58,510 nt of DNA, from the IMG/VR virus record IMGVR_UViG_3300032087_002691, positions 1 through 58,510 of that record, one strand, 5' to 3'. Both the position numbers and the translations under genes were made by a program. Of the stretch, positions 11,501 to 42,804 are shown one piece after another (the first letter of the stretch is position 1; each line of letters starts with the position of its first letter). Under the pieces are notes generated by a model that was given only the letters and a program-made list of their open reading frames with translations, was not told the DNA's origin and searched no databases. The DNA comes from a virus.

Positions 11501-14000
11501 TGTATACAGGAGGACTGGTTGGTTCTTAAGTATTAAGGATAACAACACTACCAACTTTAATAGAAGCAGCGTAGAGAACGCAACAGACTTTTTCAGTCAG
11601 AAGTGTGTCATTGAGATAATGAGGCCAAAGAAAAAGATTGAAAACCCTGTATTTTATGAGATGGGGCTGTCGTATCCTATCGTGGAGGTTAGCTCAAGAA
11701 GAACTCACGGAGGAGACAGGTCCAATAGCACTATCACGGGGCTGGAGTGTAAGGTTCTAAACGCCAACTACTTTGAGTCTGATACAAGATTCTACGTTGG
11801 AGATAAGGTCGTATTTGACCACTCTGTTGCTCAAGCAGATATCAACCAGAACAATTTTGTTTTCGTTGCTGGGGTCGCGCCGACAGGAACATCATACAGA
11901 TATTTCGTCGATTCAAGTAATCCGTTCGCGCCTGCGTCATTTAACCTCACGTATGATAGCTGCTACATTACATCTAGCTATTTGACGGCAAACGGAACAT
12001 TCCCTGGTGTTGTCACAATCAACGAGGGCGATGTATACATGAGGCAGAGGGAGATGCTTGTAAATGCGAAAACTCCATTTGCTCCAATAGCTGCAGGTAT
12101 AAACGACAGGGTGTATAGCCCAGACCAGCCGAGGAAGCAAGACTACACTACGTTTATTGTCGAGGATGACAGGGCTAGTGACTTCTTTGAAAGTGATGCT
12201 AAGTCCTTTGGTCGCGCTCATATTGAGACGCCAGACCAAGAGCGTATAAAGAGAATATCCTCCATTACGTACAGCGACCCATTTGCGTTTGATTCATCGC
12301 AACTAAACCTGTCGTCATTTAATCCGAATCTGTTCCCGTACTACGACATGCCATCGAAGCACGGTGAGGTTACGTCGCTGATTGACGGTAACGAGTCAAT
12401 CACGGTTCTTCAGGAGAGCAAGGTGTCTATCCTGCCTATCGGAAGGAACGTCGTCGAGATGAATGGCGAGAGCAACATGGTTGCGTCTACAAACGTGATA
12501 GGCACCCCAACATTTATGGCGGGGTCTTATGGGCCAGGTAACTCCCCAGAGGGTGTTGTTGAGCGGTTTGGGCAGGTGTACTTCTCTGACGTCAGAAGTG
12601 GTGTTGTGTGTAGGATTGACGGCAAGGGTATCACGCCTATCAGCTCAGAAAAGATGGAGTCATACTTCGAAGGCTTGTTTGGTGATGTCAACAATGCTGT
12701 CGCCAGACCTCGCGTCCCAAGTGGCTTTGACCCAGAGAACGGAGAGTACGTTGTCACAACAGAGGCAATAAGTCTGAACAAGATTGTTATTGATGGCGAT
12801 ACCATAGGGTATGGTCACTCGCCTATTGCGGGCACAGTCAACCCAGACCTTCAGGTATCCCCTAAGTTTGAGGACAGCTTGATTCTAACTTGGGGTACAG
12901 ACCCGTTGGATTGGGACGAGAGCGCTTGGGAGTCGGACGCCTGTACACCAGAGTGGGATGATTTGCATTCAGGCACCATCTATCTTGATAGACTTACAGA
13001 GACCAATGGGGTGTATGTAGACCCTTTGTATATAGGTGAAACACAGAATCTAAGAGTGGACACTATTGTTGAGGGTCAGCTGTACCGTGGTAGTGCATTG
13101 CTTTCACTCAAGGACTACACCGTTGATTTCTGTACAACGCTCATGGATATCGTTAACGGCGGTACCGATACATTGACGATAACTAGCATTACCGACCCAG
13201 AGCAGGCTACCGTGGCTTGGGGACCAAGCGTACAGAAGTGGCTTACGTTCTACTCATTCTATCCAGAGATGTACGCCAACGTTCAGAACAGATTCTTCTC
13301 GTTCAAGAACGGTCAAATGTATTATCACAACAAGAATGCTACACGCAACAACTTCTATGGTACTCAGTACACATCTAAGATAGACCTCATCTCTAAGGCA
13401 AACCCAAGTAGCATTAAGCTCTACAAGGCAATGAGTCTAGAGGGTAACGCTAACTGGGAGACGACGTTATCTAACGAGACACAACAAACTGCTGTTATAC
13501 AAAAGACTCACTGGAATGAAAAGGAAGGTTTGCGTTACGCAAACATACCTAGGGTTATTGATGAAGACCCAGGCGCGTCTACCGTTATATCATCTTCGGC
13601 TTACTCCGTAGTGGGTGAAGTTGCTTCTGTTGATTCTGGCTCTATAACATTTGTTAATGATATTAATAAGTCGCCTGTTATGACGGGTCCTTCATCTCTT
13701 ATGTATGTGTGCCGAGATGGAGAGTCCGTTTGGACGGTTATAGCGGCCCTAAAACTCACGGGCGTGTCATCAAAAAATAAAGCTATAACGAACATTGACC
13801 CTAGTACACTAAGTATTGGGGCTGGTGACATCTTGGCAAATGCTTGTATAACAGGTGTTAGTGGAGACACTCTTAGAGGCTACTACACGAAGCTCTCTAT
13901 GGAAAACGACGACACTACTGCGAAGGAATTGTTTGCTGTTAATGTAGTGTACGAACCATCACTCCTCCACAACGACGGAGGCCAACCTAATAATCAGTAA
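8511..14000 (+). CDS. Giant tail stabilisation / nozzle-like protein
   Basis: 1829 aa. The N-terminus has NTDDDERILKVYEMVDALN (residues about 12-30), followed by a propeller-like beta series of 'YLYFTDDRNEPRKIN' type repeats. I recognise this as the 'phage stabilisation protein' opening of crAss-like and allied podoviruses. The central and C-terminal parts are beta-rich with many Asp/Asn turns, fitting a large tubular tail component at the distal end of a short tail. It follows the two ring proteins without a gap, as in crAss-like neck-tail clusters. No enzymatic motif is evident. Confidence 0.6.
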   Translation: MAIDKLIPQYLNTDDDERILKVYEMVDALNIRVSHEDDGDAGVVKNVEGNTSISPKNASDAIPASGINKVIGAVGSEAYKCIYFFLYNGNDGHGIYKYTAQADADSNDTYQKVYESRSLNFNMQSYVSADLIVNQQGEHLLYFTDDRNEPRKINATKALSGSYPSEFTGGSDDEKELFLTVCKQPPLEPPTFVFNSNASIKRNQLHNKLFQFAYQYVYDDGEVSALSPYSKIAVSPNHLAFNSSQRNLYETNNNEINIYVDCNKGPVDKIRLFAREGQNGYFVRIDEIPNNREVDQEIVTFRNDGIYNQLDENSANKLFDAVPRQAAAQTFSNNRLFYGNYLEGFDNVDTESIQYPVYKNIFLQPEVRSNIGGTYNTGFFYDVAALQLTDFYTRTASGIGSSFEDLRYLELGETIEPLTSKYIPTGDFTNVQQTFSSNAPIGFQIDTSQIPENGFEVASTILLSYSMDGDSIGFSNNTLHSVDADTHDYELTSFDVDITLREGDTVVSGNGMPAQISVLNPAKFARKNNLGNYKAIHNFDRQGCLNNLKITGGMDISAEVEVPAGTNKQGIVDLIVQAINLHAPLSVGVHSGVKSGDDIANDLLSYSAGDLSNHLLAFKADDSALKSADISSNYFLGVGEDTDRPDILFVEWDGVFTMTPSANYVANQDHVFVSLKTSSVDLAAVGAATFAVNQNILNIITPTTSKFAPTSHHTDGIVTGYVFSASEIDCEIHTADLTSNGDGLPFKDIVGSDATFLTTIRNVNVSGNGAIVFNDSSVSANKSFKSGATHEFGIVYFDNRNRNGGVQKLGSVEVAPLGSSKRNGRNGTCEIDIRLLHEPPEWAERWAPVYSTNTTYDTFLQFTVAEALLPNLTLFRDILSPVDTDDENDSLRNSRLINSSIGGDIRSAIFLSMRTLEGKNNSYKEFKGGEIDYQYQEGDILRIVSYVNPQGETIYPDGKEFKITGYNYFIDNDENPLQVSTTSVATVGDDEGQEKDDVYRRTGWFLSIKDNNTTNFNRSSVENATDFFSQKCVIEIMRPKKKIENPVFYEMGLSYPIVEVSSRRTHGGDRSNSTITGLECKVLNANYFESDTRFYVGDKVVFDHSVAQADINQNNFVFVAGVAPTGTSYRYFVDSSNPFAPASFNLTYDSCYITSSYLTANGTFPGVVTINEGDVYMRQREMLVNAKTPFAPIAAGINDRVYSPDQPRKQDYTTFIVEDDRASDFFESDAKSFGRAHIETPDQERIKRISSITYSDPFAFDSSQLNLSSFNPNLFPYYDMPSKHGEVTSLIDGNESITVLQESKVSILPIGRNVVEMNGESNMVASTNVIGTPTFMAGSYGPGNSPEGVVERFGQVYFSDVRSGVVCRIDGKGITPISSEKMESYFEGLFGDVNNAVARPRVPSGFDPENGEYVVTTEAISLNKIVIDGDTIGYGHSPIAGTVNPDLQVSPKFEDSLILTWGTDPLDWDESAWESDACTPEWDDLHSGTIYLDRLTETNGVYVDPLYIGETQNLRVDTIVEGQLYRGSALLSLKDYTVDFCTTLMDIVNGGTDTLTITSITDPEQATVAWGPSVQKWLTFYSFYPEMYANVQNRFFSFKNGQMYYHNKNATRNNFYGTQYTSKIDLISKANPSSIKLYKAMSLEGNANWETTLSNETQQTAVIQKTHWNEKEGLRYANIPRVIDEDPGASTVISSSAYSVVGEVASVDSGSITFVNDINKSPVMTGPSSLMYVCRDGESVWTVIAALKLTGVSSKNKAITNIDPSTLSIGAGDILANACITGVSGDTLRGYYTKLSMENDDTTAKELFAVNVVYEPSLLHNDGGQPNNQ

Positions 14001-16977: not shown

Positions 16978-19900
16978 ATGGAAACAAAAGAGCAGTTCCT
17001 TGAACGCTACAATGCAGCTGTCGCGGCTGGCGCCACACAAGCTGAGCTTCAAGCAATGATTGATGAGTTTGAAGCCTCAGAAGCGGGGCAGAAAGCTAGG
17101 GAAGAATACGAATACCTCAACCCTCCTAAGGAGAAAGTCGATGAGTATTTAGAATTTTTAAATTCTGACCTTCAAGACGAGGAGTATGTGAATAATTATC
17201 TTACTCCCAGTGTCCCTATTCACAGGGGCTGGATGGACATGCAGACTGGGGATTTGAAACAGGACCGTGATTTAGATATGAGCCCTGCGTTTGTTGCATT
17301 ACAGGCATATAACTATACATCTAAAGAAGCAGATGTATGGCATACTAGTGGGGGTAACATAGCGGACAAAGAATTTGGCTCTGAGATGGAAGATTGGTAC
17401 GGTAAGCAGTTTGTTGAGCAAAACCGTACATACAACAAAGGAGCCTTAGACTATAAGTACGACAATAACCTTTCGGCCTCAGAAAATAAATACTTAGAGG
17501 AAAGGCATTATCAGAAGCTGCGTTATACCGCTGCTATGTCTCCATTAGGTTGGGCTGACGTGGCCAAGGATTTAACCGATGATAAGAAAGAGGAGTTGAC
17601 GTCGCAAATTGTTACAAATCTTATAGAAATTGACAAGGCTTACAATGAGCGGCTAAAAAATCCAGATGAGTATGATGACTACATGCTCACTCCAGAGGAA
17701 CGTTCAGAATTCTTAGACAAGCAATTAGATTATTTTTCGATGCTTGGAGTTACTCTTAATGATGAGGCTTATGATGATTTTCAAAAGGAGTATAAGAGAC
17801 TTAACGATTATCGTAAAAAAGAACTGCTGGATAAATTCTCACTCAGCGAGCTATCAAACAAGATTGAAGAGAGGCACCTAGCTAAAAAAAGAGTTAATAT
17901 TGACAGCTGGGATTCTGAGTATGTAGAGCTCTATGGGCTTCAAAAATATAAGTTGAGCAACATGGTGCCTGAGGCCGTGCCCAGCACTACACTACCCTTT
18001 TTATTTTCTCCTTCCAAAAAATCATCCGTTCCGACTCAGGAAAATAGAATTGTATTTAGCCCAAATAAAGAGTATGATTTTGGTGATAAGACGATTAGCG
18101 GGGAAGAGGCTATGCTTCTTCAAGAAGTAGGAATAGCTCAACAAGAGGGGCTGGAAAGATTTGTACGCGCTCATTTCAGCCAAACGTACTACTACAAAGC
18201 ACTGCATCTTATTGGCGGGTTGCCATCACAGGGAAACAACGACCCTGCATCTTGGTTTAAACCCGACTCCAAGTTGGACGCTAATAGGCAGGATTTAATT
18301 GACGTAATAACAGAAAAGATTAATTCTGATTCCCCTTCGGAACAGCATGAGGGTTGGTTTATGCTTTTTTTAGGGAGCGGCGGTGAGCATAAAAACCCTG
18401 AGTTTACGGGCTTCTCTGCTGAAACAGATGAAGAAAGAATTATTCATTTGCTTAACGCATTTAGCAACTCCAACGACACACAATTATTCAAAGCCTTTCG
18501 TAATGGGTTTGACGGAGGTGAGGGTTTTACCTATGAGCCAGAAGGAATAATGGCGATAGACAGGGGGGTTTCAGTGCCTGAAGCTATGGCGCAGTCGCTA
18601 TTTCCTGACGAAATGTTTCACTTTGGATTTGAGGCATACGTCGGCGGCGTGGGTTCATTGTTTTCTGGTAAAGATTTGCATGATAAAGCAGGGCAGCTAA
18701 CAGTCTTTGCAAACCAATTAGAAAATGTATATCCAGACATCCGAGAAAAAGGCATATCGGCTATACCCGACTGGAGCTATAAAATTACGAAATCTGGAAG
18801 GACTGATAGGGAGCATTTTCAAGAAACTATGACTAGGATAAGGTGGGAGGGTATAAGCGGTTTGGAGGATATGGCTGTGGAGAATATAAAGACTAGAGCA
18901 TATGCGTATGCGTCTGAATACATGGGGCCTAAACTTAGGCGTACACTGGGCAAAGATTACAGTCAATCCAAGCTTAGGGAATTTGAACAAAAACTATATC
19001 GAGAATATGATACCCCAGCAGACTTGACTGGAGATGGGTATTATAATGAAAACAAAGAGGGTTGGGATGGATTTACAGAAGCTTTTGGCGGGGAGTTTGG
19101 GCGAGCATGGCGACAGTCATGGGACGGTATGGCAACACTGACTGAAAATACTCTTGTCCTAGCGGATATTATGCCAGAATACAGGGCAAAGTCAAATCAA
19201 AGGGCACGGCAAAGAGGCATAGACGCCATAACAAAAGAGCTTCGTGTATCTACTAGGTCGCTTAGCGATAAGTTTAACTCTGGCGACTTTACTGGATGGA
19301 TTACAGATGTAGGCACACAAACGGGTGGGTCGATTCCAATGATGGGTGCGGCGCTGGTTACTGGGTTTGTAACAAGAGGGAACTCAAAAGCCGTTGCTGT
19401 AGTCACTTCCGCCATGGGTGCCGCTAGTGTTTATTCTCAAAACAAAGACACTGAATGGTTTAAAAACTTATCTGGCGCAGAGGCAACGGGATTTGTACTT
19501 AGTAGTGGTATAGCAGAAGGTTTGCCAGCGTTGGTGGGAGCAAAGATTTTTTCTGGCCAGGGCTTTCTTGCAAAAAGGCTTGCCAGTACGCCGATGGGAA
19601 AGGCGGTTATGTCGGGTAGCGGGAAACAGGGTTTCTTGGGCTGGACCAGGGGCCTGATTATTGGAGCTGGGCTAGGCGCTACTGAAGAGGCTTTGACAGA
19701 GGGCGTTACCGCTGGGTGGCAGTACACGGCAGAAAGATGGGCGAAAAATCAAGCAGGGGAATACGCTACTTGGAACTATGATGACTGGTGGGCAGCCGTT
19801 AAAGAAGGAGCTCTTGCTGGTCTTGGCATGGGTGGTGTTTTTTCTGGAACTGGTACTCTTGTTCGAACTGTTTCAACTAAAAGTCTTGGTTCATTAAGAA

Positions 19901-22900
19901 CAATAGCACAAATAAAAGAGCTGCAAAATCAGTACAGCCAGGCGGAATCAAGGACAGAAAGAGCGGCTATAGGTAGAAAAATTGTTGACGCTGTAGCGGC
20001 TCACACAAAGAATACAGAAAGACGCCAGGCTCTTATGGAATATCTGGCTGAGACTGATGACGCTAAATTCAACGAACTCGTTAATATTCATAATGAGGTT
20101 GAGGTTTTAGCGGAAGAATACTCTAGGTCTGATACCAAGAGAAGGAGGGAAATAAATAAAGAATTAAAATCTCTGCTGAATCGAAGGGCAGACATCGAAG
20201 GAGAATTAGACTCAGCCCTACAGACGGACGCAGCTTTAGAGGCTAGGGTACTAGGCAGGGAGGCCAAGAAAGCAGGTGAGAGGAGAAGAGATTACGGGGG
20301 GTTGTTTGAAAAGGGAACGGGAAAAATTACAGTAGATAAAAGCAACCTTGGTGCAGTAGCTAAAATCATTGAGAAGCTCACAAAACTTGATGTAAGCCCA
20401 TATAGCATTATGACTGAGGATGGCCGTGCTGTCGCGGCTACAACAGGAGAAAGGATTGTTAAGGGTATGCAAAACGCCTTAAACGTGGTCAGGGCACTGT
20501 CATCGCTTGGGGATTTTGCTATAGAGATGTATCGTGATTACGACACCTACATCAATGACCTTATGGAGGAAGGTAGTGTTGTCGACGAGGCTACGGGTGA
20601 GACTCGTAAGATGACGAGAGAAGAGGCTCAAAATGCTGCTGGTAGAGGAATGTGGACTGGCTCTGGAAAGATTAAGCTGTTCTTGCCAGCGATGCTTGAG
20701 AACACCGCTTATCACGAAGGGTATCACGACTTTGTTCTTCAGACGGTTGGAGAAAAGGCGGCAATAGGATTAGCTAAAAAACTATTTCAAGCCCTCCCTA
20801 AAAACCTAGTACAGAAGTACGGTAGCTTCTTAAGCTCCTATGGCTCTGGGATGGGCAATCTTGTTAAGATACTTGAAAACAAGAATGTTAGCGACGCCGA
20901 CAAGCGTCAAGCTGCAGATGAATTCCTTATGGAATTTTTGTCTGACCTGTCTGCTGGAAACGTTTCTATTGAAGTCCAGAAGGGGATTATTCGACAGTTT
21001 ATGGACTTCTTGGCTCCACACCTTGGTCGGATTGGAATTAAGGGTATACCAGACGCTAAGATTTCCGACGTAGTGAAAGCCATCAATCAGCTAACATCTG
21101 AAGTAGCTGAAGGTAAAAGGCTTGAAGGCCAAAAGGCTTTGTCTACTGCCGTAGCTAGAGCTGGATACGCAACGATGACAGCAAAGATGGGTATCAGCGT
21201 CGATGATGAAATTGAAGAAGGCTACGACCAGGCAAAGGCGCAAGCCATGACGTCTAAAGATTCCGACGAGAGCGGTAAAAAGATTGACGCCACCCTTATG
21301 TTCCTAGTCGGCAAGTCAAGAGTAAGCGGTAGATATCCTATTAGAAAGAGCTTCAACAGCAACCAGCACATAGAGAACTTCATTAACTATATGGAGGAGA
21401 GGAAAGGCTGGGTGTTTGATGAGATGTTCATCAATAAAGGTGAGTACGAGGGTAGGGAGTTCTCAACAGACGAACCCGCTGTGCAGCCACCAAAACCAAA
21501 GGCTACTCTAGTGCCTACGGATTCTGATATATACAGTGTTCAAGCATACGACTTTGAGGGCTTTGTGGAGATTATGGATAAGGCTCTTGAGAAGAGAAAG
21601 GAGCTTAGCATGAACCTCGGAATTCAAGTAGACCCGTTGACCGTAGAGGATATAAAACAAATCAAAGAGGAGGGCGGTGTTTTGTATATGACCATAGACA
21701 ATAAGGCTGGCGCCTATATCAAGCGCGATGGTTATATGGGCGGCTTGTTTAAGGACCCTGACTCAAGCTACCGCTCTGTAGCTAAGGCTATGCAAGACAA
21801 GCGCAACGGCCTCGCTAAGAATTCTTGGGGCATGAAGTCTGCGTTCATGAGCTCGTATGCTACAGACCTTGAGAGGCAGTATGTTGAGAATGGATGGAAG
21901 CCTGTAGCTAGGGTAGAGTTTAATCCAGATTATGCACCAGAGGGGTGGGATGCAGAAAACTCGCCGTTGATTAATAAGCCAGACATCGTATTCTACGTCG
22001 AGGGCAAAGGAGAAGTGGGCGGAGGTAAGATGATGGATAGCTATGACGAAGCTTATTCAGCAGCAAGAGACCTTGCTCAAAAGGACAGCCCAGCATCTAA
22101 GGCTCAAGCTATGCCAGACGCCTCGCTGCAAGAGGATGCTACCGTCTCTTTTGAGGATGCTTCAGGCATCACTCCTGCTATGCTGTCCAGTAGAGCGGGC
22201 GAGCTTAAGCTACCTGAATCTCAAAGACAAAAAAGAAATAAGGTTGTTACAGGTGTTCTCAACAAGTATGAGCTTGGCGAGATTAATCAAGAGCAATATA
22301 TCGCTGCTGTTCGAGAGAACATGCCAATCAAGGCTTTCGACGAGGTTCCAGAGATTCCTAGTCTATTAGACGTTGCCGCATCCCTTAAAACAAATCAAGT
22401 TAATAAGGGTATTATTGGCTCAAATAAGCAGGTGGAAGACGGTTATTACGTCGGTCTTAGGCTTGATGTTCCAGCATATAACGAGTATGACACATGGGTG
22501 GTGTCTGTACACCAGGGCAAAAAAGCAGAAGCTAGGACTCCCTACCTAGGAGGTAAGACTATCGGATATGGTCAGACAGGGGTCATCACAAATGTCACCT
22601 TTGATTCAACACCTGTAGCGGCACTTAATATCGCAAGAAGCAAGGGTAAAACGACTATTGCCCGCATGTTTGGAGACTGGAGAAATGAAGACCCTAAGTC
22701 TGTGCGTGAACGTGCGATGGCAATCATGGAGGGACCAGAATACAATTCTGACTACAAGGAAATTGGTAAGATGGACGGATGGATTCAGGTTGGTATGAAT
22801 CCGTTCAGGCACAGCTGGTTCTACGACAAGCGAGATGGCCGTCCGATTGCAGAGGCGTCTGAAGTTATTCAAATTGGGGCTCTTGTACTTGCCAAGGATG

Positions 22901-25900
22901 CGGTTAAGATTTCTGAATCTGATGAAAGGTTTAACGCTAAGAGCGCTGTCAGCGGCAAGACTATTAAGTTTCAACGTCCAGGCTCTATTGTCGACGATGT
23001 TAACAGTCTAGCTAAGACTGATAAGGTTGGCATCTTTGACTTCGAGTACTCTGCCAACACCTCTCAAATGGATGAGTGGATAAAGTCTGGGGTGGTAAGG
23101 CAGGAGGAGATGTCGTTTATCGAGGGTATGGATGTCTTGGCGCACTCACCAGACAACATGATGGTTGGTAGCGTGTCTGTTGGCGATAGAGTTATTGCAG
23201 AAAACGGAGGAGGCTTGTTCTATTCTGCTAGAACTGGCGACGTGTGGGCTGTAGCTGGTGAGAGTACTGGTAGAAACATGGCTAAGGAGCTCAATGAACT
23301 TCGCTCAAAATCTGAAAATGGTAAGGCATACATAGTTCTTATTAGTGGCAGCAGGGTGAAGCACGTAAGCTCTACTGGCGGTGTTATGTCATTTGCCGCT
23401 ATTGGATTTGAGATGGTTGAACAAGGCATCATCACTAAGTCTGAACTAAAGGAGGTGCTTAGGCAAACCATTAAGGAAACAGAAGTAATATCTGAAAAGG
23501 CTCAGATAAGTGCTAATGAGGCAAGGGTTAAAGATGGTAAAAAGCCCAAGCCAATAAGGAAGGGTGTTAGAACGCTAAGCGACCTCACGGGTACAATGCA
23601 AGCATTGTTTGACCGTTTCTATGTTGAGTTTGCTTCCCCATATCAATCTACTTTTGAGCAGAGGAAAGCCTTTGTAGATAGATTTGCCACCAATCTAGGC
23701 GCCTTGGTTAAAAGAAAGGCCGACATGGGCGATGCTGAGTCAACGGGCCTAAAGGAAGCCTACAAAAAAATGTTTGGTATTTCAAACATGAATACGAACC
23801 AATTTGGCAGCACCATTAAGAACTTCTTCTTCGACAACTTCCAAGAAAAAATCTTGCAGGGTGGCCAGAAGGGTGAAATATATGCAGCTATTGAGGTATC
23901 ATCTGACGTAGAGCTTGTAACGGACCCAGACCCAACAGCGTCTTACCCACTTAAACTCGTCAACACGGACCCCGATGCTCCAGCTCCAAAGACAATAGTC
24001 TTTAAAACAATGCGCCGAGTTGACGGCTCTATGATTTCTCGTAGCTCAAGAGCTATGGGTAAGCAGGTGGGTGATACATACATAAACAGCAAGGGTAAGA
24101 AGGCAACTATAACAACCACTGTCTTTGAGGCTATGAGTGGGCAGGGCGTCACCTCGTGGGGGCGCATGACTATGAAGGCTCCAGTACCAGTAGACGCTAT
24201 CGCTAGAGAGGTGGTGAGCATGACTGAGACCCGCACCATTGGTGTTCGCGCCAAGGCCCAGGGTAATATCATGAAGATGCTTGCTGATGCGATTGATTCA
24301 ACAATGCCTACTCCAACCATAGAGGTTAGACGTGGTAAGCTTATCATAAACTCTTCTAGGGCAGAGCTTTGGAATAGGAGCAGAGATGAGATTGTTGACA
24401 TGCTTGTGGCTAGTGGTATGAGCAAGGAGAATGCCGTGGCACTGTATAAACAAGCTAAAGCCTACAAGCAAGGCAGGTTGGCGGGTAAAAACGCCGCCGA
24501 CAAGAATGCCCGCAACACCTTAGGTAAAAGAAACAGGGAGCTTAGCTCTGAAGCTAAATCTTTAAAGAAAGAACTTCGTGAGCTTACTCAAAAGTCAGAA
24601 ACTGTTGATGAGTTCTTGACGTTCGCCATCGCCCTCATTGATGAGCGCATGAAGGATAGGGGTAAGCAGCCGTTCTCAAAGAGAGAAATACAGCGGTTCT
24701 TTAAAATTGTTCGTCAGGCACATAGGTCGTCTTCAAAACGTATAGCTAAGGATGGAGGGGCTGAAGTGATGGACTCGTTTGTCGAAAAGATTATTGACAT
24801 CTTTGATAAGCAGGATGCGCAACAGGCCATGAGGGATTACATGGCTTCAATTAGCGCAGCAAGAAAGCTTCAAGACAGAATTGCTAAGCTGACTAAGAGA
24901 CGTAAAAGAAACGAGTCTCTTAAGTCTATAGGTTCATACGTAGAGGTCTTGAGAAGGCTTGCTGATATCAATCCAGCGATGTTGTCTCCAACAGACGTTA
25001 TGGATTTTATTAAGACTTTGAACGCTGCTGTAACTTCCGTATCAAAAGTTAAGACTGAGTTTGACGCTGAGGAAGAGAGAGTTGTTGGGGTGGCTCCAAA
25101 TCGCACCTCGGTAGCAGCATTAACGGCCATGGCCAATGACTTCAGGGCTCTCGAAGAGATTGGACGTAATGCCAGAATGGTGGCTAAAGCCGAGGCGGCT
25201 GCACAGAAAAACGGAACCGAGTTTGAGGAGGAGTATTCAAAGCTTATCAAGGCAGAGAGGCTTAAGCAGGTTAGCTCAACCAGAAAAGCTGTTCTTAAAT
25301 ACATCGAGGACAACCCTCGTGAAAACCTAGACGCATCCAATCCAGCCGACCTGGAGTATATCCTAGAACAGCTGGCTGAAAATAAAGCCCTACTTGAGGA
25401 GCAGTCAAAAGAAGCTATTATCAATGATGTGCTTCTCCCCATGATTGCTTTCAACCTTGATAGGCTGCTTGCCGATGAGCATATAGCAGAAATACTGGGT
25501 GTATACTGGGCATTTGATTATGACGTCAACGCTCTTTCTCGGCGACTTTCAAAGCTTGACAAGGTGACACTCGCCAGTATTGAGTTTAAGCTTGACGACT
25601 ACCTGATGAACGACTCTACGATGGGTCTAGGTACTGTAGCTGCTAGGGTCAAGGGTAAGATAGATTATGCCGACGGCATTAAATCAAACTTGCTAGATAA
25701 GGGCATTGTTGCAACAGGCAAGCCACTTCTTGCTGCTCTTGACACCGTAGACTCTCTTATTAGATTCATGTTCAAAACAGACTCTAAGACCATAGCTAAG
25801 ATTAGAGTTCTTATTGGTTTTGCCGCTATTGAGAGGTCGTTTGCTAAGGCTGATATGATTCATGCCATGACAGCGGACGCCATCTCCGATAAGATGAATG

Positions 25901-28620
25901 AGATTGAGGGTAAGAGATATTGGAAGCGCAAGAAGGGTAGTGTAAGCACTGTGTACGACAATGCTATCATGCAGATATTCTCTATGGCTAGGCAGATGCC
26001 AGTCCTTGAGGAGGGTGTCGAAGGTCAGAACGCTGCTGATTGGTTCTTAGCCCTTAGAGATGTTATGCTCAGAACGATTGAGCACAACGAGCAGCAGAAG
26101 GACGTATACTCTAAAAAAGATATAGCTGAGATGCGTCGGGCATATGAATTTCTGTTTGAAAATTTCGATGAAGATTTGCCAGCTAGTCTTGACAACCTCA
26201 TGGGTAGAGTCGGTGTCTTTAGACCTGACCTTGTTGAGATGGTTGACTTTATGGTTGACATCCACTCCACTATGGAGGATATCTTCGCTAACTACGTAGA
26301 GAGGTATCTCGGTAAGACGTTGGTTAGAGAATCTCAATACACACCGTTCAGCGTCATGTCTAAGATGGAGCAATCCGCTGTTGATGATGCAGCGCAGCTT
26401 AGACAAGCGATGATGGAGGGGATGAGAACAGCAGCCCTGTCTAATGTAAAAAAGACAGCGGGCTCGTCATACGAAAGAAACCCAAAGAGTATATCTAGTA
26501 AGTCTAACATCATTGGTCTAAACTTCCTTAGTATCAATGAAAGAACGCTGAGAGAGAATACAATATTGTCTTACACTATCGGGGATGTAATGGCTTTGCA
26601 GTCAGCATTCTCTAGTGAAGAGATGACACAGCTCATCCCAGACAACGGAAGAAGAAATAGACTGCATCAAAAACTAATGCAGTATATATCTCAAGATATT
26701 GGGTCGGCACCATCGGTGTTTAAATCTAGATTTATTGTCAATGAAAGGGTTCCGTTCCTCGGCGGCAGGAGATTTAGAAACCCACTGCAAACGATAAGGA
26801 TTGCCACTATAGTAAGAGCATTTGGTGGGGTGTTTGTACAGACGCTCAAGCAGAGTACTGTTCTTGTTAGTGTCATTGGAAACATGAAAAACCCAATGCA
26901 GTCCATTCCGTATTTGCTTCAAACGTGGGCTGAGATTTGGGCATACGCGGCCAGAACTGGCGGGTTTAAGGATTCTAAACTAACCCTTGAGGCTAATGGT
27001 AGATATCGACTATTGCAAAACTCTCCTGTCTTTTCGAGAGACTATGAGGCTGGTAACATCGACCCCTACACAGGCTCTATCGAAACCGAAACAAGTTGGT
27101 TTGTAAGAACGAGAGATAAGCTCGCTTCTTTGGCTCTTAAGAACTTGAAGTCAACGGATAAGGCTGCAGCTATTGCATCATGGTTCGCATACTATGCTGA
27201 CTTCATGGTCTCAGAGAGTCTCGCCGAAAGCGTATGGGATATTGACTGGGAAGCTGAGGCGAACAATCCAAACGCAGAGGCGTTGAGCTATGCTGACACT
27301 ATGGTTTCAAAAGACCAAGCAGCATCTACTGCTAGACAGGCAGCCGATGTGTACAAAGATGGTCGTGGATTTGCTGGTGCGGTGACTGCATTTGCTAGAA
27401 ACATTATTCTTCCATTTGCCAGACACACCATTAATAAAAAACGAGCTATAGGTTCTGACGCAAGTAAGCTTCTATTTGGAAGAGACAAGAAAGCTAGGAG
27501 AGAGGGAGGTAAGAACATGGTGTTCCACATCGCGGAGCTAACAGCTTTCCAAGCTATAGGATATATTCTTCTACCAGCCTTAACTCAGTATGTAATGGGC
27601 CTCTTGGGTTATGACGACGAGGAAAAAGAGTCTGAATACAAAGACAACCCGTGGATGCGCGTGGGTGGCGGCGTGGTAAAGGACTTAGTGCCGCTTCCTC
27701 CTATGGGATACACTGACGACTTGATAACCGAAAACATAAACAGGTACTTCCTGTTCCCTATAGATTCTGGCATGGGGTGGACAGATGATGGCTATGATGA
27801 TGGCTACGAGGCATGGAAGAACACATCTCCAAACGCCTTGCCTACATACCAAAGAAAATCAGACCTCTCCGCCAAGGGTGCTTTAAACCTTATGCTTGGA
27901 CCGTATGGCCAGTTTGTAACTGACGCATACTACACGTATCAAAACCTTAACAACCCAGATAACAAGGTTATTTCTAAGTCAGGTAGAGAATACTACGTAA
28001 GGCCAGAAGATAAGGAGCAGATGGACACTCACTTTGCTTTAAGCTTCGTGTTGTTCATGACTCAAACGGCAGGGTTCTCATCAAAAGAACTTGACATGAT
28101 TGTCCGCAAGATGGATGACCTGCCTCGTGAAAGAGCCTTCTCGTCAGAGGAAGAACTCATGGGCTATGAGTATCAGATGGAGTGGCTGTTGGAGAACAGC
28201 GATGAGAACAAGCAGTTCTTGAAGTTCTTTGAGGGTGGAGAAGGTTCGGAAGATGTGGACGCTAGAATTGAACAATACCTCAATAGTATAGCCGATGACC
28301 CTGACTCATCTCCTCAAGAAGTCAAAAAGGCTTTGACCAAAATAAAAAAGGGAGCTAAGACTGCAGATGTGGAGTTCTATATGAAGCCTATGGAGGGTTA
28401 TTCAGAACACATCAGAGATATCAGGGGCATATACAGAAGCACATCCAACGCCAAGGAGTACGCTTCCGCTATCAACATCCGCAAGGAGATGATGAGCCCA
28501 GAAGAATTTGCTAACTTTAAGGCTCTATCCGATGTGTACATGTCCGCCATGAGTCCAGGTAGACTTGCTGAAAGCGAATACTATACTGCACACGGGTTGT
28601 CAGAAGACTTATCTAACTAA
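16978..28620 (+). CDS. 3880-aa large polyvalent protein with HEGYH zinc-protease motif
   Basis: A single uninterrupted frame covers one fifth of the window. Residues about 775-920 form a Gly/Ala-rich hydrophobic stretch suited to membrane insertion. HEGYH at residues 1246-1250 fits the HExxH zinc metalloprotease site. A segment ending APEGWD (about residue 1653) followed by 'KPDIVFYV' resembles the acetyltransferase-like module of phage polyvalent proteins. WIQVGMNPFRHSWFYD (about 1933-1948), then 'EVIQIGALVLAK', is another polyvalent-protein module. Long coiled coils cover about 2480-2760, and a C-terminal LPNxx-type helical module ends the chain. Such fused proteins are thought to be injected with the DNA and act on the host early. 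I see no RNA polymerase DxDGD motif. Individual activities are inferred. Confidence 0.7.
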   Translation: METKEQFLERYNAAVAAGATQAELQAMIDEFEASEAGQKAREEYEYLNPPKEKVDEYLEFLNSDLQDEEYVNNYLTPSVPIHRGWMDMQTGDLKQDRDLDMSPAFVALQAYNYTSKEADVWHTSGGNIADKEFGSEMEDWYGKQFVEQNRTYNKGALDYKYDNNLSASENKYLEERHYQKLRYTAAMSPLGWADVAKDLTDDKKEELTSQIVTNLIEIDKAYNERLKNPDEYDDYMLTPEERSEFLDKQLDYFSMLGVTLNDEAYDDFQKEYKRLNDYRKKELLDKFSLSELSNKIEERHLAKKRVNIDSWDSEYVELYGLQKYKLSNMVPEAVPSTTLPFLFSPSKKSSVPTQENRIVFSPNKEYDFGDKTISGEEAMLLQEVGIAQQEGLERFVRAHFSQTYYYKALHLIGGLPSQGNNDPASWFKPDSKLDANRQDLIDVITEKINSDSPSEQHEGWFMLFLGSGGEHKNPEFTGFSAETDEERIIHLLNAFSNSNDTQLFKAFRNGFDGGEGFTYEPEGIMAIDRGVSVPEAMAQSLFPDEMFHFGFEAYVGGVGSLFSGKDLHDKAGQLTVFANQLENVYPDIREKGISAIPDWSYKITKSGRTDREHFQETMTRIRWEGISGLEDMAVENIKTRAYAYASEYMGPKLRRTLGKDYSQSKLREFEQKLYREYDTPADLTGDGYYNENKEGWDGFTEAFGGEFGRAWRQSWDGMATLTENTLVLADIMPEYRAKSNQRARQRGIDAITKELRVSTRSLSDKFNSGDFTGWITDVGTQTGGSIPMMGAALVTGFVTRGNSKAVAVVTSAMGAASVYSQNKDTEWFKNLSGAEATGFVLSSGIAEGLPALVGAKIFSGQGFLAKRLASTPMGKAVMSGSGKQGFLGWTRGLIIGAGLGATEEALTEGVTAGWQYTAERWAKNQAGEYATWNYDDWWAAVKEGALAGLGMGGVFSGTGTLVRTVSTKSLGSLRTIAQIKELQNQYSQAESRTERAAIGRKIVDAVAAHTKNTERRQALMEYLAETDDAKFNELVNIHNEVEVLAEEYSRSDTKRRREINKELKSLLNRRADIEGELDSALQTDAALEARVLGREAKKAGERRRDYGGLFEKGTGKITVDKSNLGAVAKIIEKLTKLDVSPYSIMTEDGRAVAATTGERIVKGMQNALNVVRALSSLGDFAIEMYRDYDTYINDLMEEGSVVDEATGETRKMTREEAQNAAGRGMWTGSGKIKLFLPAMLENTAYHEGYHDFVLQTVGEKAAIGLAKKLFQALPKNLVQKYGSFLSSYGSGMGNLVKILENKNVSDADKRQAADEFLMEFLSDLSAGNVSIEVQKGIIRQFMDFLAPHLGRIGIKGIPDAKISDVVKAINQLTSEVAEGKRLEGQKALSTAVARAGYATMTAKMGISVDDEIEEGYDQAKAQAMTSKDSDESGKKIDATLMFLVGKSRVSGRYPIRKSFNSNQHIENFINYMEERKGWVFDEMFINKGEYEGREFSTDEPAVQPPKPKATLVPTDSDIYSVQAYDFEGFVEIMDKALEKRKELSMNLGIQVDPLTVEDIKQIKEEGGVLYMTIDNKAGAYIKRDGYMGGLFKDPDSSYRSVAKAMQDKRNGLAKNSWGMKSAFMSSYATDLERQYVENGWKPVARVEFNPDYAPEGWDAENSPLINKPDIVFYVEGKGEVGGGKMMDSYDEAYSAARDLAQKDSPASKAQAMPDASLQEDATVSFEDASGITPAMLSSRAGELKLPESQRQKRNKVVTGVLNKYELGEINQEQYIAAVRENMPIKAFDEVPEIPSLLDVAASLKTNQVNKGIIGSNKQVEDGYYVGLRLDVPAYNEYDTWVVSVHQGKKAEARTPYLGGKTIGYGQTGVITNVTFDSTPVAALNIARSKGKTTIARMFGDWRNEDPKSVRERAMAIMEGPEYNSDYKEIGKMDGWIQVGMNPFRHSWFYDKRDGRPIAEASEVIQIGALVLAKDAVKISESDERFNAKSAVSGKTIKFQRPGSIVDDVNSLAKTDKVGIFDFEYSANTSQMDEWIKSGVVRQEEMSFIEGMDVLAHSPDNMMVGSVSVGDRVIAENGGGLFYSARTGDVWAVAGESTGRNMAKELNELRSKSENGKAYIVLISGSRVKHVSSTGGVMSFAAIGFEMVEQGIITKSELKEVLRQTIKETEVISEKAQISANEARVKDGKKPKPIRKGVRTLSDLTGTMQALFDRFYVEFASPYQSTFEQRKAFVDRFATNLGALVKRKADMGDAESTGLKEAYKKMFGISNMNTNQFGSTIKNFFFDNFQEKILQGGQKGEIYAAIEVSSDVELVTDPDPTASYPLKLVNTDPDAPAPKTIVFKTMRRVDGSMISRSSRAMGKQVGDTYINSKGKKATITTTVFEAMSGQGVTSWGRMTMKAPVPVDAIAREVVSMTETRTIGVRAKAQGNIMKMLADAIDSTMPTPTIEVRRGKLIINSSRAELWNRSRDEIVDMLVASGMSKENAVALYKQAKAYKQGRLAGKNAADKNARNTLGKRNRELSSEAKSLKKELRELTQKSETVDEFLTFAIALIDERMKDRGKQPFSKREIQRFFKIVRQAHRSSSKRIAKDGGAEVMDSFVEKIIDIFDKQDAQQAMRDYMASISAARKLQDRIAKLTKRRKRNESLKSIGSYVEVLRRLADINPAMLSPTDVMDFIKTLNAAVTSVSKVKTEFDAEEERVVGVAPNRTSVAALTAMANDFRALEEIGRNARMVAKAEAAAQKNGTEFEEEYSKLIKAERLKQVSSTRKAVLKYIEDNPRENLDASNPADLEYILEQLAENKALLEEQSKEAIINDVLLPMIAFNLDRLLADEHIAEILGVYWAFDYDVNALSRRLSKLDKVTLASIEFKLDDYLMNDSTMGLGTVAARVKGKIDYADGIKSNLLDKGIVATGKPLLAALDTVDSLIRFMFKTDSKTIAKIRVLIGFAAIERSFAKADMIHAMTADAISDKMNEIEGKRYWKRKKGSVSTVYDNAIMQIFSMARQMPVLEEGVEGQNAADWFLALRDVMLRTIEHNEQQKDVYSKKDIAEMRRAYEFLFENFDEDLPASLDNLMGRVGVFRPDLVEMVDFMVDIHSTMEDIFANYVERYLGKTLVRESQYTPFSVMSKMEQSAVDDAAQLRQAMMEGMRTAALSNVKKTAGSSYERNPKSISSKSNIIGLNFLSINERTLRENTILSYTIGDVMALQSAFSSEEMTQLIPDNGRRNRLHQKLMQYISQDIGSAPSVFKSRFIVNERVPFLGGRRFRNPLQTIRIATIVRAFGGVFVQTLKQSTVLVSVIGNMKNPMQSIPYLLQTWAEIWAYAARTGGFKDSKLTLEANGRYRLLQNSPVFSRDYEAGNIDPYTGSIETETSWFVRTRDKLASLALKNLKSTDKAAAIASWFAYYADFMVSESLAESVWDIDWEAEANNPNAEALSYADTMVSKDQAASTARQAADVYKDGRGFAGAVTAFARNIILPFARHTINKKRAIGSDASKLLFGRDKKARREGGKNMVFHIAELTAFQAIGYILLPALTQYVMGLLGYDDEEKESEYKDNPWMRVGGGVVKDLVPLPPMGYTDDLITENINRYFLFPIDSGMGWTDDGYDDGYEAWKNTSPNALPTYQRKSDLSAKGALNLMLGPYGQFVTDAYYTYQNLNNPDNKVISKSGREYYVRPEDKEQMDTHFALSFVLFMTQTAGFSSKELDMIVRKMDDLPRERAFSSEEELMGYEYQMEWLLENSDENKQFLKFFEGGEGSEDVDARIEQYLNSIADDPDSSPQEVKKALTKIKKGAKTADVEFYMKPMEGYSEHIRDIRGIYRSTSNAKEYASAINIRKEMMSPEEFANFKALSDVYMSAMSPGRLAESEYYTAHGLSEDLSN

Positions 28621-28627
28621 GATTTAA

Positions 28628-29104
28628 ATGAAACTAGAAGTATTAAGATTTAGTAGCCAGAAAGACTCAACATCTGGCGCATTGTTTGACATTACTAACG
28701 GCAGGAAATTCCTGTGCTACACACTTGAAGATGAGAAAAGAGATGAAAAAGTTATGGGGGAGACTCGTATCCCCAGCGGAACGTATAGAGTTACGTTACG
28801 AACAGTGGGGGGCCACCACAGCAAGTATTCCCACCGCTTTAAGGATATTCATAAAGGCATGCTCTGGGTTCGTGACGTTCCTAATTTTGAGTATATACTT
28901 ATTCATTGTGGGAACACTGATGAGCACACTGCTGGTTGCCTTCTGGTTGGAGAAACACAGTCGTCCAATATTAAAGAACCTAACGGCTTTATTGGAAGGT
29001 CCACGCAAGCGTATTTCGACGTTTATCCAAGGATTGCGGACGCGCTTGAAGCTGGGGAAGAAGTAACCATCACTTACATAGACTACGATGGAGAAGAAGA
29101 TTAA
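28628..29104 (+). CDS. DUF5675 protein, putative peptidoglycan enzyme
   Basis: 158 aa. It shows the DUF5675 pattern: TLEDEKR (residues 32-38), GETRIPSGTYRV (44-55), MLWVRDVPNFEYILIHCGNT (78-97) and TAGCLLVG (101-108). The conserved His93, Asn96 and Cys104 arrangement resembles the His...Gly-Cys site of L,D-transpeptidase (YkuD) folds, so a cell-wall cleaving or remodelling role is plausible. It starts 8 nt after the giant gene and overlaps the holin by 17 nt, placing it at the head of a lysis cassette. Family recognition is good; the enzymatic role is inference. Confidence 0.7.
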   Translation: MKLEVLRFSSQKDSTSGALFDITNGRKFLCYTLEDEKRDEKVMGETRIPSGTYRVTLRTVGGHHSKYSHRFKDIHKGMLWVRDVPNFEYILIHCGNTDEHTAGCLLVGETQSSNIKEPNGFIGRSTQAYFDVYPRIADALEAGEEVTITYIDYDGEED

Positions 29105-29522
29105 GGATACTGGCTTAGGTAAGTGGCTCAAAGACAAGGCGCCAACGATACTTGATACGGTAGGCGAGCTGTTGCCTGATAAGGGCGGACTTGGTGTTGT
29201 AAAGAACCTGCTGGACAAGGACCCCAACATCAATCAAGACGAAGCTAAAGCCAGGATAGATGCTGAGATAGCATTTCAAGACAACGTAACGGAAAGATGG
29301 AAGGCTGATATGGGTAGCGATATCAAGCTCGCTAAGTACATCAGACCAGTTACACTCATCGCTCTTATGGCCATGTTCGTGCTCACGATGATAGCGGATT
29401 CCCTTGATAACTGGCCCTTTAACGTCAAGGACAGTTATGTATCTTTGTTAGAGATACTAATGCTAACATCATTCGGTGCATACTTCGCTGGAAGAACCAT
29501 CGAAAAAGCTAGGACTAAATGA
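29088..29522 (+). CDS. Holin, GTA_holin_3TM-like
   Basis: 144 aa. An amphipathic N-terminal half contains DNVTERWKADMGSDIKLAKY (about residues 65-84). Two hydrophobic helices follow: RPVTLIALMAMFVLTMI (86-102) and a second around 117-134 ending in AYFAGRTIEKART. This is the family pattern of the 3TM holins ('tERW..D..sD..L....RP', 'fggRtieK'). It should open the inner membrane for the wall enzyme. It overlaps DUF5675 upstream, and its stop overlaps the ATG of the 44-aa gene. Confidence 0.75.
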   Translation: MEKKIKDTGLGKWLKDKAPTILDTVGELLPDKGGLGVVKNLLDKDPNINQDEAKARIDAEIAFQDNVTERWKADMGSDIKLAKYIRPVTLIALMAMFVLTMIADSLDNWPFNVKDSYVSLLEILMLTSFGAYFAGRTIEKARTK

Positions 29523-29715: not shown

Positions 29716-30003
29716 ATGGAGCTAGGAGAAAACACAAGAGTCACGCTTGATATAAAGACTATAGTTATCATCATTAGCTTTATTGTCACCTCTGTCGGGA
29801 TGTGGTATGCTATGAAGAGCGAGATTGAGCTCGCTAAAAAACTACCAGAACCAGAGATTGAGCGCACTGAATACGACCTCAAAGACCAACTCATAAGGGA
29901 AACTATTTTAAACACGCAGGAGCAAGTAGAAGCTAATGGCAAGAAACTAGACTTGATAGAGGGGCGGCTGTACGAACTCAGCACGGAAGCCAAAAGGAAA
30001 TGA
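29716..30003 (+). CDS. Single-pass membrane protein with coiled coil (spanin-like?)
   Basis: 95 aa. One transmembrane helix (about residues 13-33, TIVIIISFIVTSVGMWYAMK) is followed by a charged coiled coil (residues 40-90). The shape fits an i-spanin or a holin regulator; no lipoprotein partner with a lipobox is seen. It overlaps the thioredoxin-like gene by 4 nt (ATGA). The lysis role comes from its neighbours. Confidence 0.5.
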   Translation: MELGENTRVTLDIKTIVIIISFIVTSVGMWYAMKSEIELAKKLPEPEIERTEYDLKDQLIRETILNTQEQVEANGKKLDLIEGRLYELSTEAKRK

Positions 30004-30386
30004 ACAAGACTATTGCAATAATCGCAATCGGGGCAAGCCTGGCGGGCGCTGGAGCCGTATCCAAGGTCAGCAACAAACCAACATCTGAACCTATAGAGAC
30101 TTCGGTTGAAGAAAACGTTGAATCAGACATCGTTGTTATCCAGATAAACGCGGACTGGAATAGGAGTAATACTAGGAGTGATTTGAGAGCACTTAGAGGC
30201 TGCGACTACAGATTTGCTTGGCTTGAGGACCAGCCATACGAGCTTAGAAAAACCATAACTTCCGTTCCTGTTGTCGTCATTTACGCTGATGACAGACCAG
30301 CGTATCAATATGCTGCTGGTATTAGCCTATCGCTTGACACTCCGTTTGAGGAGATACAGAATAAGGTTTACGAATTATCTGAGTAA
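30000..30386 (+). CDS. Exported thioredoxin-fold protein lacking the CxxC site
   Basis: 128 aa. A hydrophobic N-terminal signal or anchor (residues 1-22) is followed by a thioredoxin-like domain. Strand DIVVIQINADW (43-53) leads into W53-N54-R-S-N57, where active thioredoxins have W-C-x-x-C. Later, TSVPVVVIY places the usual cis-Pro at Pro90. Both redox Cys are replaced by Asn, so a redox role is unlikely; the fold may bind a partner in the periplasm. It is the last gene of the lysis cassette and converges with the T9SS-type gene, overlapping it by 12 nt. Confidence 0.6.
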   Translation: MNKTIAIIAIGASLAGAGAVSKVSNKPTSEPIETSVEENVESDIVVIQINADWNRSNTRSDLRALRGCDYRFAWLEDQPYELRKTITSVPVVVIYADDRPAYQYAAGISLSLDTPFEEIQNKVYELSE

Positions 30387-31046
30387 CAGCACACTTCCTG
30401 AGGATACTATATTCTCTTCTGACTCCCCGTGTAATGTCCACACGTAGACACCCTGAGAGGCCCCGACTCCGTTCCAGCATACAGACCTGAGTAGGTCTCC
30501 GATAAAGACTAGGTTGCCCCACCTGTCATATATCCTATACTCTAGCTTATCCCAGCAGTAGCTATCTGCTATTGGACAAAAGAGGTCATTAACACCATCA
30601 TCGTTAGGTGTGAAATAGCTAGGCATATACACGTTGTAATCGCATCCCTCACAAGACATTCCAGTCACGCAATCAACAGTTGATATTGACAGCACGGTAT
30701 CTGGAGACAGCTGGATATATTCAAATACCTCAACCGTGTCTGCAGGCAACTGCACATACACCGTATCACATGATGCTATCGGCGGCTCAAGAACACCGCA
30801 TTTCCACGCCACCCACGCGGCCCATATACCATCTACTCCATGGTAGTAGTCGCAAAGCAGTTCCCCAACTTCGTATGGCGTCGTGCAATCAAGACAAGAC
30901 CCGTCGTCAACCGTAGCCTCGTCGTTGTAGTTGCAAGAGTTAGGCCACATGCACCCATATATAACGGGTACTTCAACATAAACTGTATCTGCCTGAGCAA
31001 CAGCTATAAGTGGCATCATAAATAGCGCTATCAAAGTCTTTCTCAT
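30375..31046 (-). CDS. Secreted protein with gliding-motility/T9SS C-terminal domain
   Basis: 223 aa. A signal peptide (MRKTLIALFMMPLIAVAQA, cleavage after residue 19) is followed by a Cys-rich stretch. It contains the flavobacterial 'CNYNDEATVDDGSC' repeat (residues 38-51) and several further Cys. Residues about 138-223 match the gliding-motility-associated C-terminal domain (CHU_C, type B T9SS signal): SYFTPNDDGVNDLF (143-156), YRIYDRWGNLVF (170-181), WNG (191-193), QGVYVWTL (198-205) and final SGSVLLLR. In Bacteroidota this domain directs proteins through the outer membrane. The phage would thus place a protein on or outside the infected cell. A minus-strand TATCTTTG box lies 4 nt before the ATG. 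Function beyond export is unknown. Confidence 0.8.
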   Translation of the reverse strand: MRKTLIALFMMPLIAVAQADTVYVEVPVIYGCMWPNSCNYNDEATVDDGSCLDCTTPYEVGELLCDYYHGVDGIWAAWVAWKCGVLEPPIASCDTVYVQLPADTVEVFEYIQLSPDTVLSISTVDCVTGMSCEGCDYNVYMPSYFTPNDDGVNDLFCPIADSYCWDKLEYRIYDRWGNLVFIGDLLRSVCWNGVGASQGVYVWTLHGESEENIVSSGSVLLLR

Positions 31047-31050
31047 AGCG

Positions 31051-31058
31051 CAAAGATA
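31051..31058 (-). promoter_or_regulatory. Bacteroidota -7 box TATCTTTG for the T9SS-type gene
   Basis: Read on the minus strand the box is TATCTTTG, then CGCT, then the ATG at 31046. It gives the secreted protein its own host-type promoter, unlike most minus-strand genes. No TTG -33 box is visible. Confidence 0.5.
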
Positions 31059-41913: not shown

Positions 41914-42804
41914 TTAATCTCCGAGGATGCAGTCTACTGCCTTCATCGCTTGGGTGCAGGCACTGACAAGGAACTTCTTGTCGTTGCCAATCTTGCTAAT
42001 CCACCCGTTGATGTATGCCTGCGAGTTTGTGTGGTCAGACTTGGGGCTCAGCCCCACGATGCCTGTCAGGAATTCGGCACCAACTTCCGCCACCAATTCC
42101 TCCTTGCTATAGTTCTCGTCACCGAAGGAGTTCATGTCAACCAAAGTCTTGCGATTCAACAGACTCTCGTGGCCTGTGCTATGCGTCAGCTCGTGGAAGA
42201 GCACCTTGTAGTAGTCGTCAGCCGACACGAAGGTCTCCATCCTCGGCATCTGAACGTGGTGGGTCGCTGGCCTGTAGTATGCTCGGTCTCCTCCCTGCTC
42301 CAAGGTTGGTCGCCCCTTGAACTTCTCGTAGATGGCGTCAGCGCGCTCGATAGGCGTTGAATCATTGCCAGCTGACACGGGCTCGCGTCTCGGCTCGATG
42401 TCGTCGCATTGGGCAATGTTGAACACGTTGTAGGAGCGCAGGGAGAACAACTTCTCGTAGGCCATACCAACAGGGATGTCAGACTCTTTCTTGTAAATCT
42501 TCTTGTCCTCTCCCTTGAAGAAGATGTTCCAGAAGATGACCATCGTGGATGTCTCTCCCTTGCGGACCTGACCACCAAGCTGAGATGCCTGCTTGTACGT
42601 GAGCCATTCGTTGTGCTCATACTTCTTGTCATCCATCTCCGCGAAGAGGAAGAACACGTTCATCCCCTTGTACGGACGTCCTGTGGCTCGGTTGATTGGG
42701 GCCAGCCCACCTGAACCTTCCCATGGGCGGAACCATGCCATGCCTTTGTCCTTGAGTCCGTTGATGACGCGCTCGGTCACCTTGTCATAAATGTCTTGCT
42801 TCAT
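41914..42804 (-). CDS. ArdC-like antirestriction protein (ssDNA-binding domain plus zincin)
   Basis: 296 aa. The N-terminal ArdC domain (residues about 4-130) has 'GMAWFRPW', APINRATGRPYKGMN (35-49), WLTYKQASQLGGQVRKGE (67-84) and 'SYNVFNIAQC'. The C-terminal part has HELTHSTGH (204-212; His204, Glu205, His208) with Glu240 as the likely third ligand, a zincin-like metallopeptidase. ArdC proteins protect incoming DNA from host restriction and bind ssDNA. A promoter cassette lies upstream, and its start codons (MKQDIY) are duplicated in the next gene. Confidence 0.85.
   Translation of the reverse strand: MKQDIYDKVTERVINGLKDKGMAWFRPWEGSGGLAPINRATGRPYKGMNVFFLFAEMDDKKYEHNEWLTYKQASQLGGQVRKGETSTMVIFWNIFFKGEDKKIYKKESDIPVGMAYEKLFSLRSYNVFNIAQCDDIEPRREPVSAGNDSTPIERADAIYEKFKGRPTLEQGGDRAYYRPATHHVQMPRMETFVSADDYYKVLFHELTHSTGHESLLNRKTLVDMNSFGDENYSKEELVAEVGAEFLTGIVGLSPKSDHTNSQAYINGWISKIGNDKKFLVSACTQAMKAVDCILGD

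Follow-up and report, generated by a model that had tools for sequence, protein, structure and literature searches.

The locus and the phage that carries it

The window, that is, the whole stretch of 58,510 nucleotides analysed here, carries on its minus strand an ATG-initiated coding sequence (30375..31046) for a protein of 223 amino acids (aa) that ends in a type B C-terminal domain (CTD) of the type IX secretion system (T9SS). Facing it on the plus strand are a gene for a DUF5675 protein (28628..29104), the adjoining holin gene (29088..29522; phrog_3427, E=3e-21), which anchors a conserved slot, a 95-aa gene of the lysis-adjacent cluster (29716..30003) and a small convergent gene of 128 aa (30000..30386), which overlaps the 3' end of the coding sequence by 12 bp and has a homologue at the matching place in the sister phage contig L002. 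All sequence motifs quoted in an earlier note on this DNA were found in the 223-aa reading frame, but the gene end given there, 31058, is that of the upstream box TATCTTTG (31051..31058, minus strand).

The window genome is that of a Flavobacteriia podovirus. The phage genes recognised encode a portal (phrog_6547, E=1e-191), structural proteins, the holin, a primase-helicase and an ERF recombinase, as well as a PD-(D/E)XK nuclease-like protein and a crAss-type muzzle domain. Matches to the portal in the phage collection came from Flavobacterium, Cellulophaga, Tenacibaculum and Maribacter phages and one unassigned environmental record, the best at about 30% identity. As the portal relatives that have been isolated all infect Flavobacteriia, the host is probably also a member of Flavobacteriia, where the T9SS is common, and the portal, holin, primase-helicase and ERF genes uphold the earlier view that the protein is phage-encoded. 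The window further includes a 1829-aa protein with a crAss muzzle C-terminal domain (8511-14000), here in a 58.5-kb phage, a 3880-aa protein with no Pfam match (16978-28620; the L002 counterpart has 2972 aa), an ArdC-type antirestriction protein with a zincin domain (41914-42804, minus strand) and a 120-bp direct repeat, 97% identical, near both record ends (1-120 and about 57212-57331).

Protein layout, sorting domain and predicted promoter

The protein starts with a predicted Sec signal peptide (aa 1-17, MRKTLIALFMMPLIAVA / Q; 30996..31046), recognised by eye in the translation as MRK, a hydrophobic core and AVA-Q, with the same layout in L002, and it was among only two coding-strand reading frames of the window to pass a crude filter for a hydrophobic N-terminus. 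A Cys/Trp-rich cargo module follows (aa 23-95; 30762..30980), including the motif CNYNDEATVDDGSC (aa 38-51; 30894..30935), which has cellular and viral relatives. This motif had been described as a repeat, and multi-copy versions do exist in Flavobacteriales genomes as well as in relatives, but it is present here as a single copy. A linker (aa 96-140; 30627..30761), 69% identical to that of L002 and of low pLDDT to about residue 132, leads to the CTD (aa 141-219; 30390..30626). The protein had no match in PHROGs or PADLOC, nor in the PDB by sequence search, and no enzymatic domain was found with Pfam profiles; the cargo module, with an AlphaFold pLDDT below 50, gave no confident fold.

The T9SS type B sorting domain proposed in the earlier note is confirmed by PF13585 (CHU_C), which matches residues 141-219 over profile positions 3-84 of 86 (E=1.2e-10; 41.8 bits, cut-off 27), and by the modelled CTD fold. 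The other profile suggested there, TIGR04131, reached E=4e-8 and 33.2 bits, under the NCBI cut-off of 35, and aligned over profile positions 3-54 of 85 only; given this score and the coverage of just the first two thirds of the model, we treat the domain as a divergent type B CTD and file it under PF13585. In the alignment of phage relatives, 50 of 51 sequences match TIGR04131 at E<=0.001. The conserved CTD columns are all present (P142, F145-T146-P147-N148, D150-G151, N153-D154, R175, G177, W191, G193, Y201 and G217). In an AlphaFold model with 50 relatives in the alignment, the CTD forms a four-strand sheet at pLDDT 95-98 over about residues 141-223, with low confidence elsewhere, and its best solved counterpart, 8glk_D, comes from NucA, whose CTD is bound there within the T9SS translocon (weak at E=7e-3, TM 0.75 to target), so that structure prediction also pairs the domain with a T9SS substrate CTD.

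Among the predicted structures of viral proteins in BFVD, the best named matches were to phage proteins that bear the label 'gliding motility-associated C-terminal domain' and have the CTD fold in common with ours (E=8e-9 for A0A7S9STS8 of Virus NIOZ-UU157); these are database labels only, and no study of the context or function of these proteins was found. Cellular type B substrates (TIGR04131 / PF13585; for example SprB and the F. johnsoniae orphans Fjoh_1123, Fjoh_1720 and Fjoh_4934) likewise combine a signal peptide, predicted in the phage protein, with a C-terminal CHU_C domain bearing FTPN..DG.ND, RWG and GVY motifs and a C-terminal ..LLR, and the orphans also have an orphan-type CTD with no shuttle gene adjoining. 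Unlike these cellular proteins, the one described here is phage-encoded, has 223 aa and its own predicted leaderless promoter in a phage slot, and bears a divergent CTD under NCBI's TIGR04131 cut-off.

The box upstream of the gene is a TAnnTTTG -7 box, which ends 4 nt before the ATG in both the window and L002, in the latter after a G+C-rich hairpin and a T-run. In flavobacteria, this box is located at -12 to -5 (PMC9723704), and with the 4-nt spacing seen here the predicted transcription start is therefore the A of the ATG. The box lies 2-8 nt before the start codon in 4 of 57 window genes against 0.12 expected (P about 9e-6), and leaderless mRNAs are predicted for the genes that have it 4-5 nt before the ATG (3105+, 16978+, 45303+ and 31046-). 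Over the whole window there is no enrichment (36 occurrences, 35 expected), and no -33 TTG element is evident before the 223-aa gene. From the placement of the box, the gene looks independently transcribed by the host RNA polymerase from a host sigma-A promoter, giving a leaderless mRNA. The host-type promoter of the earlier note is thus retained as a prediction, consistent with the conservation of the box in L002 and its non-random placement.

In L002, a contig of 58,489 bp, the ortholog is 73% identical and occupies the syntenic place, as the last minus-strand gene, convergent and overlapping with the last small plus-strand gene past the holin. Residues 23-95 are 96% identical between the two (dN 0.03, dS 1.6, dN/dS about 0.02), compared with 64% in the signal peptide region and 57% in the CTD; synonymous sites are saturated in the linker and CTD. 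The difference between module and CTD marks the cargo as the most constrained part of the protein, and a copy at this distance, under purifying selection in a syntenic sister phage, means that the gene is not a chance reading frame. Domain and motif alike are of a kind typical for proteins of Flavobacteriales, as they would be in host sequence mis-assembled into a viral contig or in a captured host gene now decaying. Either origin is extremely unlikely, as the gene recurs with its neighbours in an independent contig, the module is under strong constraint and no full-length cellular relative was found, the cellular search returning only the 25-aa Cys motif from Flavobacteriales and related groups. 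Host contamination and mis-assembly were rejected because of this synteny and selection.

An accessory slot and CTDs without shuttle genes

Relatives of the region, found by search with the holin, have the CTD gene slot past the holin in common: it is present in the window, L002, L076 and L077. In the last two, type B CTD genes of 302 and 349 aa are in the matching convergent position, directly behind an overlapping gene for a secreted M43-type (pappalysin) protease of 577 or 632 aa, the L076 copy of which matches PF05572. L003 and L043 have the protease-CTD pair as well, and M43 genes come next after the holin in L079-L082. The secreted M43-type metalloproteases are located at 13200-14933 in L076, 9953-11851 in L077 and 5457-7466 in L003, in addition to those past the holin in L079-L082, and the region of the L003 gene (5457-7466) also contains a type A T9SS domain. 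In further phages of the CTD clade, the CTD gene adjoins an M15 endolysin gene (L043, and likewise the L009 group, by sequence similarity and not by profile) or lies near a DUF5675-like gene (L106).

Contig L078 is collinear with L077 at 73-80% nucleotide identity and is without the 5.2-kb block that holds the CTD and M43 genes; the common sequence breaks off after base 8943 of either contig and is taken up again in L078 32 bases further on. Because L078 is empty where L077 carries this cassette, the slot is moron-like, with an accessory cassette that is present or absent; for the window phage itself, no sister with an empty site was found. The arrangement resembles that of lom and bor of phage lambda, lysis-adjacent surface morons encoding outer-membrane proteins of a temperate phage, in that an accessory gene with its own promoter and a host-surface product (predicted here) stands beside the lysis cassette. 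It differs from them in the T9SS tag, and a scan of window proteins recognised no integrase or other lysogeny gene.

Type B CTDs depend on PorP/SprF-like shuttles, which are often encoded directly downstream (PMC12618676, PMC9143113). In six Bacteroidota genomes, PorP/SprF genes are directly downstream of 26 of 124 CTD genes, compared with 1 of 59 viral CTDs (Fisher P=2.4e-4), and 49 of 50 viral records are without the shuttle domain PF11751. A phage-borne shuttle gene was consequently rejected, the single record with PF11751 (G048/L058) having a host-type paired CTD and possibly being host DNA. In F. johnsoniae, three orphan type B CTDs use one common shuttle, and several type B CTDs, including that of an orphan, deliver what they carry to the machinery for gliding (PMC12618676). 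We trained a profile classifier on host CTDs, 14 paired and 34 orphan; with each left out in turn, it called 14/14 and 30/34 of them correctly. It placed 49 of the 50 phage CTDs in the orphan class, a class learnt from six genomes with fragmentary contigs, in which some 'orphans' may have lost their neighbour to a contig end; the exception was the sole record with its own shuttle gene. The CTD of the 223-aa protein scores 57.4 bits as orphan and 39.3 as paired.

A phage outer-membrane barrel was considered as a substitute shuttle and rejected, since its fold matches general porins, FadL and FapF and not specifically PorP/PorV. The family concerned comprises secreted phage proteins of about 348 aa, predicted to be outer-membrane barrels (L076 10599-11645, L003 227-1258, L106 1233-2273 and L086 5794-6834), and the model is barrel-like with 12-14 strands at modest confidence. 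Type B CTD genes are present at three of the four loci as well, and no homologue of the barrel proteins was found in the window phage.

Such a domain in a viral genome is not confined to this phage: a motif scan of 2.9 million viral contigs picked out 66 stretches distributed over 64 contigs, every one with a CTD reading frame, and at least 64 viral contigs thus carry type B CTDs. Among 51 records, the window phage included, 21 also encode Terminase_6N, and type A sorting domains above the cut-off were found in 11. In L017, L049, L021 and L027 (records G015, G041, G019 and G024), a type B CTD gene encoding about 880 aa is located ~1-1.5 kb from the terminase gene. The cargo of the viral type B CTD proteins ranges from none to more than 1,000 aa. 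Proteins of 107 aa that are essentially a signal peptide and a CTD are encoded in large-phage contexts by L012 (6237-6560), L041 (4979-5302), L048 (4352-4675) and L051 (431-754), with dN/dS about 0.25-0.3; the L012 protein has a CHU_C match over the cut-off, and in L041 the first in-frame start would add 45 residues. In 50,697 phage records, tblastn with the 223-aa protein brought up nothing beyond cyanophage matches to the Cys motif and matches to the CTD in two uncultured huge phages, to which further CTD queries added one faecal metagenomic record. Type B CTDs were accordingly present in three metagenomic records only and in no phage isolate of this collection. The CNYN..DDGSC motif is found in cyanophage virion-type proteins without a signal peptide (L114-L119; S-CAM1 and S-H9-2 records).

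Proposed role and alternatives

Our best explanation, which we hold with slightly better than even confidence, is that the 223-aa gene is an accessory, moron-like phage gene that the host RNA polymerase would read from its own TAnnTTTG promoter into a leaderless mRNA. Sec would carry the product across the inner membrane. The host T9SS, together with a PorP/SprF-like shuttle serving orphan type B substrates, would then take up the type B CTD; this shuttle would have to come from the host because the phage encodes none. The infected cell would retain the protein on its surface, and the strongly conserved Cys/Trp-rich module would act there, most likely by altering adhesion or masking a phage attachment site and thereby limiting superinfection. 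Export to the host surface, taken by itself and judged from the sequence, is likely. A published minimal type B signal, of up to 235 aa (PMC12618676) and so longer than the whole protein, counts against it, and export may fail in a given host, as type B CTDs can be specific to particular shuttles. Flavobacterial T9SS and gliding mutants are phage resistant, and SprB and RemA are discussed as receptors (PMC9233685, PMC13288928), which makes the masking or diverting of surface proteins against superinfection our first choice of function; that superinfection blocking or surface remodelling is the actual purpose is plausible, at somewhat less than even weight.

The resistance conferred by T9SS and gliding mutations (PMC9233685) would also suit a T9SS decoy, in which the phage CTD fills host PorP/SprF-like shuttles or translocons so that fewer gliding adhesins, which serve as phage attachment factors, reach the surface and the cargo is secondary. 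The conserved proteins of about 107 aa in L012, L041, L048 and L051, consisting of signal peptide and CTD only, favour such a role in some phages. For the 223-aa gene we consider it unlikely, because the cargo module is far more conserved than the CTD, which argues that the cargo matters, and because a single gene copy may not saturate the T9SS.

An equally unlikely alternative is a lysis or egress factor, an exported protein that, joined in relatives by the M43 protease, would loosen or strip the outer surface and so let progeny leave or keep them from adhering to debris. The gene adjoins the holin in the window, L002, L076 and L077, CTD genes sit by the M15 endolysin in L043 (and in the L009 group by similarity) and near DUF5675 in L106, and the M43 genes after the holin in L079-L082 fit the same picture. 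However, the 223-aa gene has a separate promoter on the opposite strand and its product no enzymatic domain, L078, a sister of L077, is without a CTD gene, and no recognised lysis gene adjoins the CTD genes of jumbo phages. One might also envisage a virion component that uses its CTD to dock onto shuttles of the host surface at adsorption, given that PorP-like surface barrels are binding partners of type B CTDs (PMC9143113) and that related Cys motifs occur in cyanophage virion-type proteins; this is very unlikely for a protein that has a predicted signal peptide, which those cyanophage proteins do not, and for a minus-strand gene that lies outside the block of structural genes.

Beyond superinfection control by the 223-aa protein, we tentatively raise, as a doubtful but broader idea, that phages of several unrelated lineages infecting Flavobacteriia repeatedly took orphan-class type B CTDs to load the host T9SS and gliding surface, with bare signal-peptide-plus-CTD proteins that jam adhesin display as the extreme; this would be an export-based superinfection control not described before. 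A 2020 cryophage paper reported three type A T9SS cargo genes in one phage, termed a unique occurrence (PMC7468147). As here, these are phage genes with a T9SS sorting domain for which the host exporter is presumed, and superinfection exclusion was suggested there too. There, however, type A domains stand on enzyme-like or PA14 proteins, whereas the case described here has a type B domain with a different shuttle class, a small Cys-rich cargo and a different slot (PMC7468147). The statement in the earlier note that such use of the host T9SS is little described therefore needs to be divided: no account of phage-encoded type B T9SS cargo was found in the literature searched, but type A phage cargo was reported in 2020 (PMC7468147) and some viral proteins already bear a CTD label in databases. 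New here are the common accessory slot by the lysis genes, the M43 protease as a recurrent partner, the absence of a shuttle gene, a CTD of the orphan class, the predicted leaderless promoter and the CTD-only proteins.

Phages of Flavobacteriia are abundant, and for the majority of their accessory genes no function is known; a T9SS tag indicates the destination of the product. The T9SS and gliding genes are known phage-resistance loci, and phage proteins riding that machinery would tie superinfection to motility and secretion. The small phage CTDs, the CTD-only proteins among them, are handy tools for studying how orphan type B CTDs are recognised.
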